Origin: Bacteroidota bacterium
GTDB lineage: Bacteria > Bacteroidota > Bacteroidia > Chitinophagales > Chitinophagaceae
Length of the DNA: 64,000 bases
Reading direction: 5' to 3'
Assembly (NCBI GenBank): GCA_018267955.1
Contig: JAFDXL010000008.1
Span: forward strand, 310,001 to 374,000
Position numbers and translations under genes: made by a program. Of this stretch, positions 57,490 through 59,480 are shown one piece after another. The notes under the pieces are model-generated. The model was not told the origin of the DNA and made no database searches. It worked only from the letters and a program-made list of their open reading frames with translations. Each line of letters begins with the position of its first letter. Position 1 is the first letter of the stretch.

Positions 57490-58041
57490 ATGCAAAGAAG
57501 AGGTAAACCAAATTTTAAACCAAAACAAGTACAAAACGAACACCGTTTAAATAGAGAGATCACTGCACCTGAAGTGCGCTTGATAAGTGATGGGATGGAA
57601 CCGGCAGTATACCCTTTAGCAGAGGCTTTAAAGCTTGCAGAAGAGCAGGGTGTTGATCTGGTTGAGATATCTCCTAATGCGGTTCCTCCGGTTTGCCGTA
57701 TAATAGATTATCGCAAGTTTCTTTACGAGCGCAAAAAGAAAGAAAAGGAACAAAAGGCTAAAGCAAAGCAGTCAGAGGTGAAGGAAATACGTTTTACTCC
57801 TAATACCGATGAGCATGATTTTGACTTTAAAGCCAAACATGCCGAAAAATTTCTCCAGGAGGGTAACAAGGTTAAATGCTACGTTCAATTTAAAGGACGT
57901 GCCATCATGTTTCAGGAGAGAGGCGAATTATTACTGCTGAAGTTTGCAGAACGTCTTGCAGAGGTAGGTTCGTTAGAATCTATGCCGAAAATGGAAGGAA
58001 GGCGTATGCTGGCAATTTTTACCCCTAAGAAGAAGAAATAA
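57490..58041 (+). CDS. infC: Translation initiation factor IF-3
   Basis: 183 residues: the N-terminal domain NREITAPEVRLISDGMEP...LVEISPNAVPPVCRIIDYRKFLYE, a lysine-rich linker helix, and the C-terminal domain VKEIRFTPNTDEHDFDFKAKHAEKFLQEGNKVKCYVQFKGR (both by pattern). It monitors start-codon and initiator-tRNA choice on the 30S subunit. The start is ATG, with an in-frame TGA directly before it, so the AUU-based autoregulation known from E. coli does not apply. The usual downstream neighbours rpmI and rplT are missing; instead a hairpin overlaps the stop codon and 344 nt of noncoding DNA follow. Confidence 0.97.
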   Translation: MQRRGKPNFKPKQVQNEHRLNREITAPEVRLISDGMEPAVYPLAEALKLAEEQGVDLVEISPNAVPPVCRIIDYRKFLYERKKKEKEQKAKAKQSEVKEIRFTPNTDEHDFDFKAKHAEKFLQEGNKVKCYVQFKGRAIMFQERGELLLLKFAERLAEVGSLESMPKMEGRRMLAIFTPKKKK

Positions 58042-58060
58042 TTATTTCTTCATCAGGGGT
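58021..58060 (+). terminator. Long hairpin overlapping the infC stop codon
   Basis: ACCCCT (58021-58026) pairs with AGGGGT (58055-58060), enclosing a perfect 20-nt palindrome (58032-58051) that contains the TAA stop. The downstream sequence is T-rich (ACTATTTTATC) but has no clean T-run. Probable infC terminator or 3' stabiliser. Confidence 0.5.
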
Positions 58061-58181
58061 TAACTATTTTATCAAAATTTTTGCAGATTATTTTAAAATG
58101 TACTTGTTTAGAATCAAAAGGCAATGTACATTTGCAGGTAGAAAGAGACCATATCTACGCGTAAGCGTTTTTATATAAGAA

Positions 58182-58242
58182 GTTTTCATGGTGATAGGGT
58201 TTATAGGGGCTGGCCTGTTCTCAGGCTGGCTTTTTTATTTTA
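58182..58242 (+). repeat. Tandem 61-bp element, copy 1 (sRNA- or attenuator-like, ends in a terminator)
   Basis: It begins GTTTTCATGGTGATAGGG and ends in a stem-loop GCTGGCCTG (58209-58217), TTCT loop, CAGGCTGGC (58222-58230), then TTTTTTATTTT. In RNA the stem has nine pairs, two of them G-U. It matches copy 2 at 58 of 61 positions. With the promoter-like site at 58127-58134 it would give an RNA of about 95 nt. A 28-codon frame (ATG 58188 to TGA 58274) also runs through it; see findings. Confidence 0.7.
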
Positions 58243-58300
58243 AGAAAATATTTGCAAAAAAAATTTTGTTGTGAATTAATCTACGTTTATTTTTACGTCA

Positions 58301-58361
58301 GTTTTCATAGTGATAGGGTTTATAGGGGCTGGCCTGTTCTCGGGCCGGCTTTTTTATTTTA
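58301..58361 (+). repeat. Tandem 61-bp element, copy 2
   Basis: 58 of 61 bases match copy 1, 119 bp downstream of it. The stem is 58328-58336 with 58341-58349 (GCTGGCCTG / CGGGCCGGC), same TTCT loop, same T-tract. The three differences from copy 1 are one base before the conserved GTGATAGGG and two in the 3' arm of the stem; both stem changes still pair (U-A to U-G, and G-U to G-C). It ends 24 nt before the start codon of the 58386 gene, so it may act as that gene's attenuator or leader. Confidence 0.7.
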
Positions 58362-58385
58362 TATTTACTCCCTCAAACACCCGCA

Positions 58386-59480
58386 ATGCCCCGTTTATTT
58401 TTCTTAGCACTATTATTGTCTGTTTGCACAGCCGGCGTATTCGCCCAGCCTTTAGCGTACTATGTTAATCTCCAGAACCAGGTAATGGTTTGGGATAAAG
58501 GCATGATCAGAAAAGTTGATTACCTGGAGCCAACAGAAGTAAAGACCGGCAGGGTAGCAATTCCATACCTTGATAATTCCCGTTCGTTCAAAATTTATTA
58601 TGGTGGTGGTGTACGTACGGTTAATATAGGCTTTACCAATGAATTCCAGGTGAGCGATAACCTTGTAGCTTTTCTCAATAGTAAATCATTAAATGTTTTC
58701 GAAAAGGGAACTGTCAAAAACCTTTGTACTTATTGCACACAGTATTTTGTAGGTGATAGTGTTATCTTATTTTTTGATGGAGTAAGAAATGAATATAAGG
58801 CTTATTATGGGGGGCAGATATACCCGATAGAAGGTTTCCTTGCCGGCAATCCATTGGAGGTAATTAAGGTGTCAGATAATATTATTGCCTACGATAATTA
58901 CGCCAACCAGTTTCGCATATTCTATGATGGTAACATCATCAAGCAGGAAGACTATGCTGTAAATAGCTTTGATGCAGGGCGTAATACGGTCAGTTACGTA
59001 GATATCAATAAGCAATTCAAAATATTCCATGCAGGGCAAACATTTGTAGTAGAAGATTTTGCACCGCTCAGTTCGCAGGCAGGCGACAATGTGGTAGCTT
59101 ATACATCAAGCGACGGGTACTTTAAAATTTTCTATGGCGATAGCATTCATGTAGTAGGGTACTTTACGCCAACTGATGTAAGGGTAGCCGATAATATAGT
59201 AGCCTATCGGGATCCAAGCGGCTATTTCAAAGTGTTTTATAAAGGCGTTACTTATAGTCTCGAAAACTATTATCCTGATAAATATGTAGCGCAGTATAAT
59301 TCTCTGGCTTACGTAAATGCAGCCGGGATACTAAGGCTATTTTCAGAAGGAGAGCTTTATGATGTTACTACTTCCCAACTGGATAGTTGGGAGCTTAATT
59401 ATGACGTGATCAAGTATCAGATAGGCAAAAACATGTTCCGTATATATTATAAGGGACAGGATTACGACGATAACGAATAA
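58386..59480 (+). CDS. Exported repeat protein of unknown function, propeller-like
   Basis: A 364-residue protein with a signal peptide (MPRLFFLALLLSVCTAGVFAQ). The mature part is built of about seven repeats of 42-48 residues with the core DNIVAYxDxxGYFKIFYxGxxYxVExYxP (for example SDNIIAYDNYANQFRIFYDGN, GDNVVAYTSSDGYFKIFYGD, ADNIVAYRDPSGYFKVFYKG). The repeat period suggests a beta-propeller. There is no T9SS sorting domain, so it is probably periplasmic. I recognise no named family. It begins 24 nt after the second tandem element and converges with the NlpC/P60 gene, 2 nt apart. Confidence 0.8.
   Translation: MPRLFFLALLLSVCTAGVFAQPLAYYVNLQNQVMVWDKGMIRKVDYLEPTEVKTGRVAIPYLDNSRSFKIYYGGGVRTVNIGFTNEFQVSDNLVAFLNSKSLNVFEKGTVKNLCTYCTQYFVGDSVILFFDGVRNEYKAYYGGQIYPIEGFLAGNPLEVIKVSDNIIAYDNYANQFRIFYDGNIIKQEDYAVNSFDAGRNTVSYVDINKQFKIFHAGQTFVVEDFAPLSSQAGDNVVAYTSSDGYFKIFYGDSIHVVGYFTPTDVRVADNIVAYRDPSGYFKVFYKGVTYSLENYYPDKYVAQYNSLAYVNAAGILRLFSEGELYDVTTSQLDSWELNYDVIKYQIGKNMFRIYYKGQDYDDNE

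Follow-up and report, generated by a model that had tools for sequence, protein, structure and literature searches.

Tandem candidate small RNA genes downstream of infC in a Chitinophagaceae genome, and the multicopy, probably FopS-like family to which they belong

The window, i.e. the whole stretch of DNA analyzed, comprises 64,000 nt of contig JAFDXL010000008.1 (assembly GCA_018267955.1; genome G000, referred to below as the home genome). On its forward strand, infC (IF-3; positions 57490–58041; Pfam IF3_N and IF3_C) is followed by a direct repeat and then by a gene for a 10-bladed beta-propeller protein (58386–59480; Pfam PF21734 10_blade, E 3.3e-138) with a signal-peptide-like start, as judged by eye. 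Both neighbours are kept in relatives, where they form clusters of 103 upstream-gene and 104 downstream-gene entries, respectively. Bacterial infC usually has rpmI and rplT directly on its 3′ side. In the window, neither gene directly follows infC (58042–58385) and the next gene is that of the propeller protein, as is also the case in relatives. The repeat consists of two 62-nt units (58181–58242 and 58300–58361; spacing 119), identical at 59 of 62 positions (95%), and the propeller start codon lies 24 nt past the end of the second unit. The first-pass annotation had counted 58 identities in 61 positions (58182–58242 versus 58301–58361), and a recount gave the same value.

Each unit, read on the forward strand, is composed of a 5′ block and an intrinsic terminator. 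In copy 1 the block (58182–58208) reads UUUUCAUGG, which is antisense to CCAUGAAAA-type starts, followed by GAUAGGGUUUAUAGGG with two UAGGG motifs; the terminator (58209–58236) has a stem at 58209–58217/58222–58230 and a T-tract at 58231–58236. Copy 2, whose 5′ end would lie near 58301, carries the UUUUCAUAG variant of the block (58301–58327; assigned from an alignment of 63 distinct copies) and a terminator at 58328–58355 (stem 58328–58336/58341–58349, T-tract 58350–58355). The two copies score 90.0 and 87.1 bits, respectively, with a model (R1) built from an alignment (A1) that includes them both. The 9-pair stem, TTCT loop and T-tract described previously are indeed present in both copies, and three G-U pairs lengthen the stem to 12 pairs. 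The two substitutions within the stem (U-A to U-G and G-U to G-C) both leave the bases paired, and the same pattern recurs in the 63 distinct copies from related genomes. Folding of copy 2 yields a z-score of −4.1, and that of copy 1 a weaker −1.9; these values, together with homologues at unrelated loci of many genomes, place the element above the level of chance.

Boxes were found in both intervals proposed earlier as promoter-like (58102–58134 and 58265–58295), and they are kept at the same places in relatives. The putative promoter of copy 1 (58104–58134, forward strand) comprises TTG at 58104–58106, a 20-nt spacer and TACATTTG at 58127–58134, while that of copy 2 (58265–58295, forward strand) comprises TTTG at 58265–58268, a 19-nt spacer and TATTTTTA at 58288–58295, the latter box having one mismatch to TAnnTTTG. 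The transcript of copy 1 would carry a 5′ extension (58140–58181, forward strand), suggested by AAGA, which is enriched at −5 to −2 before copies of its class (class B, see below). The AAGA junction that adjoins the element is perhaps a processing site. Within this extension lies a small tetraloop hairpin, ACGC-GTAA-GCGT (58157–58168, forward strand), which was noticed by eye, without counting, in many relatives.

The home genome contains four intact copies, namely the window pair, C3:244780–244839 and C1:67700–67759, as well as a decayed copy (C1:64704–64763, 35.4 bits) situated 3 kb from the intact one on C1. A search of 99 genomes gave matches in all 15 genomes of the genus (the home genome included; E ≤ 8.6e-24) and in 8 of 45 genomes of other Chitinophagaceae genera (E ≤ 1e-10), and none at the latter threshold in 39 genomes of other families of the order (best E 3.1e-5). 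Relatives carry the element at unrelated loci in many genomes. The exact 18-mer GATAGGGTTTATAGGGGC occurs in at least 118 stretches of named genomes, which, among the matches listed, are mostly those of Flavipsychrobacter, Taibaiella, other Chitinophagaceae or 'Bacteroidetes' MAGs; it had no match among viral contigs. One oddly labelled match (L152) is a true copy (81.4 bits), and four others (L098, L167, L163 and L156; at most 27.8 bits) are probably due to chance. Contigs labelled Azovibrio restrictus (L142), uncultured Bacteroides (L128) and Phycisphaerales (L152) carry this Chitinophagaceae element, and their labels or bins look wrong.

The fetched loci contain 199 copies distinct by flank, or 194 by an 85-nt core, so that about five may be counted twice; the largest number of matches in one related genome (G040) was 12 at E ≤ 0.01. 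The infC locus accounts for 117 of the 199 copies, in 69 loci, 44 of which have two copies. The 82 dispersed copies have flanking genes in all orientations (++ in 27 cases, +− in 22, −+ in 17 and −− in 9, with one flank unknown in 7), which favours an RNA acting in trans and disfavours a general attenuator. Another kept position lies between a parB-like gene on the 5′ side and a cysteine-cluster gene on the 3′ side (L032, L140 and L152; names from translations). Three further loci (L126, L059 and L061) hold additional copies at most 2 kb apart, with diverged hairpins in the last two, as if the family had expanded there by local duplication.

The first 67 loci yielded 83 copies, of which 63 distinct ones were aligned as A1 (a partial copy of L026, one N-containing copy of L066 and exact duplicates were omitted). 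A covariance analysis of this alignment supports the terminator hairpin: columns 27–38 and 44–55 are paired in 99.5% of 753 cells, and both sides have changed in 7 of the 12 pairs, giving 48 double-change cells, although these counts are non-independent events because the paralogues are related. None of 500 shuffles reached the number of paired cells, the number of double-change cells or the covariation score, and one reached the seven pairs; stems slid out of register were 28–65% paired. The terminator forms the 3′ half and the main stable structure of the element, as in members of the FopS family of Bacteroides small RNAs considered below. The 5′ block is the same across all genomic contexts in the alignment, being nearly invariant. 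Both UAGG motifs are retained in 59 of the 63 rows, UUUUCAU is exact in 46 (both window copies included) and UUCAU is found in 55, and therefore antisense to the start codon is not essential to every copy. In the larger set described next, 176 of 196 copies have UUCAU in position, so the 5′ seed antisense to a translation start that characterizes FopS is present here as well.

The promoter analysis covered 196 of the 199 copies, three lying too near the start of their locus. Class A (66 copies) has TAnnTTTG, with at most one mismatch, at −14 to −12 relative to the G of GTTTTCAT; an exact box is most frequent at −13, where 37 copies have it, and a logo of 50 de-duplicated copies shows TTTG at −36 to −33 and TAnnTTTG at −13 to −6. 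Since a box at −14 to −12 defines the class, independent support comes from the peak at −13 and the upstream TTTG only. Class B (110 copies, among them copy 1) has no near box and carries AAGA at −5 to −2. For the infC-locus copies of this class (51, or 48 once near-duplicates are removed), 45 of 48 show a perfect TAnnTTTG in the interval from infC to the element, compared with 5.5 ± 2.1 in shuffled sequences, and in 43 of these 45, as counted from the listing, it lies 44–66 nt upstream. The copies without UUUUCAU (class C; 20 of 196, or 22 of 199) include 14 of 22 in which the box is shifted to just before GATAGGG, near which the RNA would then begin. Judged by sequence alone, the family has its own promoters of the Bacteroidota (sigma-ABfr) type, as does FopS. 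Both window copies appear to possess their own lineage-conserved Bacteroidota promoters, that of copy 2 at its 5′ end and that of copy 1 approximately 50 nt upstream. Because of these near and far boxes, the RNA of copy 2 is predicted to start at the 5′ block, and that of copy 1 is most likely longer and possibly processed.

No family of Rfam 15 reached its cut-off in the scanned stretches of the window or in six further loci. Several candidates obtained at E up to 10, including DUF3800-I, STnc340 and the L10 leader, scored below their cut-offs, share little with the element beyond AT-rich flanks and a terminator hairpin, and were rejected. The L20 leader (RF00558) scored 27 and 21 bits, below its cut-off of 58.7, the match consisting of an AT-rich leader plus hairpin, and was rejected because there is no rpmI/rplT directly downstream, the next gene being that of the 10-bladed propeller. 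FopS (RF04319) matched the window copies end to end with 20.4 and 20.5 bits, short of its cut-off of 56. The FopS model gave no match at E ≤ 0.01 in the home genome, and in a class-level search it exceeded its cut-off in 4 of 149 genomes; there the genes read TAnnTTTG, then GTGTTTTTCATrGTATTAGATTTAAGG-hairpin-T. The window model scored at most 11.7 bits on these FopS loci. In genome G145 (L072, 1440–1620), the reverse strand of a FopS-model match reads TTAAATCTAATACTATGAAAAACC, like a start-codon region with which FopS could pair. Of 20000 shuffles of each kind, 15 (mononucleotide) and 301 (dinucleotide) attained the local score between the 5′ blocks of the window family and FopS; beyond UUUUCAU the likeness is not significant (2309 and 10231 of 20000 shuffles, respectively). 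Homology to FopS is therefore unproved by the 5′ blocks alone, since their likeness rests on UUUUCAUGGU.

A weak match in genome G258 (38.4 bits) turned out to be an intermediate sequence (L349, GGTTTTTCATAGGATATAGGATTTATGGGC). Its score against the window block was reached by 1 of 20000 mononucleotide shuffles, and that against FopS by 4 of 20000; beyond UUUUCAU, it resembles the window block significantly (69 of 20000 shuffles) but not FopS (1891 of 20000). Searching 39 genomes with L349 revealed a second multicopy family, GGTTTTTCATAGGATATTGGATTTTAAAAACGGGG-hairpin-T (GGTTTTTCATAGGATATTGG...), with up to 11 matches per genome. This sister family shares the layout of the window type and is likewise multicopy, but it differs in block sequence, which contains UAGGAUA, and has no infC neighbour: no thrS, infC or propeller homologue was found at the 78 sister loci tested. 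A TAnnTTTG box (at most one mismatch) lies at −12 in 52 of 67 copies. In the aligned sister set (A2, from which L376 and L382, with no clear T-run, L373, at a contig end, L384, below the match cut, and exact duplicates were omitted), the stem is 91.6% paired with 15 double-change cells, and neither value was reached in 500 shuffles.

Ten sister loci scanned with the FopS model yielded nothing at E ≤ 1. The sister model (R2) matched each of the 18 FopS loci (15.8–21.3 bits, E 0.0024–0.054), which come from four genomes and are not independent. Applied to the window, R2 gave 10.8 bits (E 0.93) for copy 1 and 12.2 bits for an unrelated place, and copy 2 was unlisted. Among 244 Chitinophagaceae genomes, the window type (E ≤ 1e-9) was present in 48 and the sister type (E ≤ 1e-6) in 166, so that 214 have one type or the other; none has both (32.7 expected; Fisher p 1.5e-30, uncorrected for phylogeny) and 30 have neither. 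With E ≤ 1e-6 for both types, two genomes (G030 and G258) have both, and at E ≤ 0.01 the window model alone matches 153 of the 244. The exclusion may just reflect two clades.

Strong R2 matches in a class-level search of 395 genomes were confined to Chitinophagaceae; weak ones outside the family (L404, TTTTTCATAGG... plus terminator) serve as leads only. In a class-level search with the window model, this model reached at best 36.8 bits outside Chitinophagaceae and, among the matches listed, those at L243–L260 mostly resemble plain terminators; weak matches (E ≤ 0.1) occurred in 158 of the 395 genomes, a count that also covers members of the family. The order-level search identified two genomes of another family (f19) that carry GTTTTCATGGTTATAAGTTTT plus a hairpin (39.4 bits; L347 and L348, near 1501–1556), possibly a further, third branch. 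These elements lie shortly 3′ of an apparent stop codon.

UUUUCAU is the complement of AUGAAAA, and ATGAAA starts 101 of the 643 genes called in contig C10 of the home genome. One SusC of this genome exceeds the family cut-off. Near-perfect targets were sought in this genome as 21-mer complements of the 5′ block at ATGAAAA with at most three mismatches, and the six matches proved to be the four copies and two relics. Duplex prediction (RNAduplex) on 688 genes, from 800 kb of C10 plus the window, gave no enrichment at starts (180 of 688 genes, compared with 198 for 12 shuffles), and mid-gene and stop regions fell below the shuffles (224 versus 300 ± 43 and 140 versus 237 ± 40, 12 shuffles). A start-locked test on the same genes gave a weak signal, its mean being reached by 3% of 500 shuffles. 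In a three-genome test, the z-scores of the window seed in G000, the sister seed in G018 and the FopS seed in G170 were 1.63, −0.99 and 2.24, respectively; the FopS seed scored equally well in the other two genomes (1.98 and 2.78), so the test shows neither a home-genome effect nor power, and the FopS control is no clearer. A search of 864 kb of the home genome for RNAs with TTTTCAT plus a terminator retrieved 5 of 330 terminators, two of them known copies (2.0 ± 1.4 in shuffled sequence), and so lends no support to a wider class of such RNAs.

With respect to a possible protein partner, the home genome has three RRM_1 matches. No RRM_1 match was found in G028, yet this genome has two weak sister-like copies with CATAGGATATGG, which speaks against a strict requirement for an RRM protein. 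Two genomes (G018 and G043) with seven RRM_1 matches each have the sister type instead of the window type, which also argues against a strict link.

We consider it probable, at roughly two chances in three (0.66), that both units are independently transcribed small RNA genes of a multicopy, lineage-specific, FopS-like family acting as follows. Each RNA would consist of a near-invariant 5′ block followed by a 3′ half that is a Rho-independent terminator. Its leading UUUUCAUrG, antisense to AUGAAAA... starts, would pair in trans with translation start regions and block initiation; we infer this pairing from FopS, since the target searches gave no clear answer. The adjoining GAUAGGGUUUAUAGGGG, with its two UAGGG, may serve as the binding site of a modulating RRM-1 (RbpB-type) protein, a proposal in line with the three RRM_1 matches of the home genome and with the UAGG-type motifs of RbpB and hnRNP A1 cited below. 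Copy 2 would give an RNA of approximately 55–60 nt with its 5′ end at GUUUUCAU, and copy 1 a precursor (approximately 58140–58236) that may be processed to a copy 2-like form. The initial suggestion of tandem sRNA genes outside any known RNA family is well supported at the sequence level by the promoter-like boxes of the copies, the conserved 5′ block, the covarying terminator, the dispersed paralogues and the lack of an Rfam match at cut-off in the scanned stretches.

Several other readings of these data were weighed against that of FopS-like small RNAs. The RNAs could be sponges in which the GAUAGGGUUUAUAGGGG block titrates an RNA-binding protein, of the RRM-1 type or another, pairing with mRNA being minor. 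The retention of this block, with its two UAGGG, in copies without UUUUCAU and the negative or weak target tests point in this direction, as do the preference of hnRNP A1 RRMs for UAGG reported in PMC5503513 and the in vitro binding of RbpB to GUAGGAUA (Adams 2021, as quoted in PMC12119571). A mere sponge, however, would have no need for UUCAU, which is in place in most copies, or for a UUUUCAU common to FopS and the sister family; moreover, two loci (L353 and L354) lack the second UAGG, and the sister-like copies of G028 occur without an RRM_1 match. We regard this explanation as unlikely, though not negligible. It is very improbable that the pair is a double transcription attenuator, or leader, of the propeller gene at 58386, as was originally considered for this locus. 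The pair does sit between infC and the propeller gene in relatives too, and close to the start codon, but attenuation is not supported as a general role: 82 of 199 copies are dispersed among flanks of all orientations, with no fixed gene on their 3′ side (a same-strand gene within 150 nt in 20 of 82), separate boxes precede the infC copies and the 5′ block is alike in all contexts. Copy 2 may act locally on the propeller gene, because a separate promoter for this gene could not be shown (a box with at most one mismatch in 25 of 42 loci, versus 22.0 ± 3.3 in shuffles).

Two further readings were weighed. That the element encodes a short hydrophobic peptide is suggested by an open frame in copy 1 (ATG GTG ATA GGG TTT ATA GGG GCT GGC CTG TTC TCA GGC TGG CTT TTT TAT), by the 52 of 63 rows free of an indel or early stop in frame, and by whole-frame variation that is slightly higher at third positions (0.116, versus 0.091 at first and 0.054 at second). 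Just 36 of 63 rows have the ATG, however, with ATA in its place in copy 2; indels occur in four rows and early stops in eight. Within the conserved block, third positions are no more variable than the first two (0.011, 0.023 and 0.011), and the frame crosses the terminator, where changes follow base pairing. Such a peptide is extremely unlikely, and we give equally little credence to mobile or repetitive DNA (REP-like or integration-site repeats) with no RNA function. Copies are dispersed, one (L002) adjoins a tyrosine-recombinase-like gene (read from its translation), C1 carries a decayed copy 3 kb away from an intact one, and 10 of the 82 dispersed copies overlap an open frame; against this stand the absence of the 18-mer from viral contigs and also the position of the promoters, the covariation of the terminator and the kept position after infC, which together indicate selection for a transcript.

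In the open-licence literature on small RNAs of Chitinophagaceae, Flavipsychrobacter and Chitinophaga, we found, among the matches listed, no earlier description of either family. The FopS-like kind of multicopy sRNA is already known; both families and their distribution appear to be new. According to PMC12119571, none of Hfq, ProQ and CsrA is present in Bacteroides. FopS together with RbpB provides a recent case of regulation by sRNAs in this genus. Should FopS-like sRNAs be present throughout the family in environmental Chitinophagaceae, the system would be much older and more widespread than described so far. The aligned sets (A1 and A2) can be used at once to design probes and covariance models, and they point to an RNA-protein motif (UAGG) that lends itself to testing; the two mutually exclusive types offer a natural experiment on the joint evolution of seed and protein site. 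As a conjecture that we rate somewhat below even odds, FopS could represent, in gut Bacteroides, one branch of an ancient class of multicopy sRNAs spread across the Bacteroidota that combine a universal AUGAAAA antisense (5′ UUUUCAUrG) with a lineage-specific block for an RRM protein; its two mutually exclusive Chitinophagaceae versions would then act as a riboregulatory hub, independent of Hfq, for proteins that start with MK and are mostly exported.

Among known systems, the L20 leader resembles the window copies in having a terminator with T-tract near infC. The comparison with FopS extends further. As described in PMC11697453, FopS comprises 14 paralogues in Bacteroides with the R1′ seed at the 5′ end, which repress susC through pairing at the start codon and are subject to RbpB binding and antagonism; its range is given by these authors as Bacteroidaceae plus one phage. 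GibS of Bacteroides, compared here by its description in that paper, has in common with FopS the R1 seed and differs in a second seed (R2) and another promoter type. Like FopS, the window family is a multicopy paralogous family of short elements with a Bacteroidota promoter right upstream and a terminator as 3′ half, and its 5′ end corresponds to the FopS UUUUUCAUrGU, with the same A/G alternation. It differs from FopS in its hosts, in the box approximately 50 nt upstream of the copy 1 class and in what follows UUUUCAUrGU, which is GAUAGGGUUUAUAGGGG in the window family and AUUAGAUUUAAGGUUAA in FopS. These features suggest that the window family is probably a diverged branch of the FopS group, of which the sister family would represent a second branch, in most other Chitinophagaceae.
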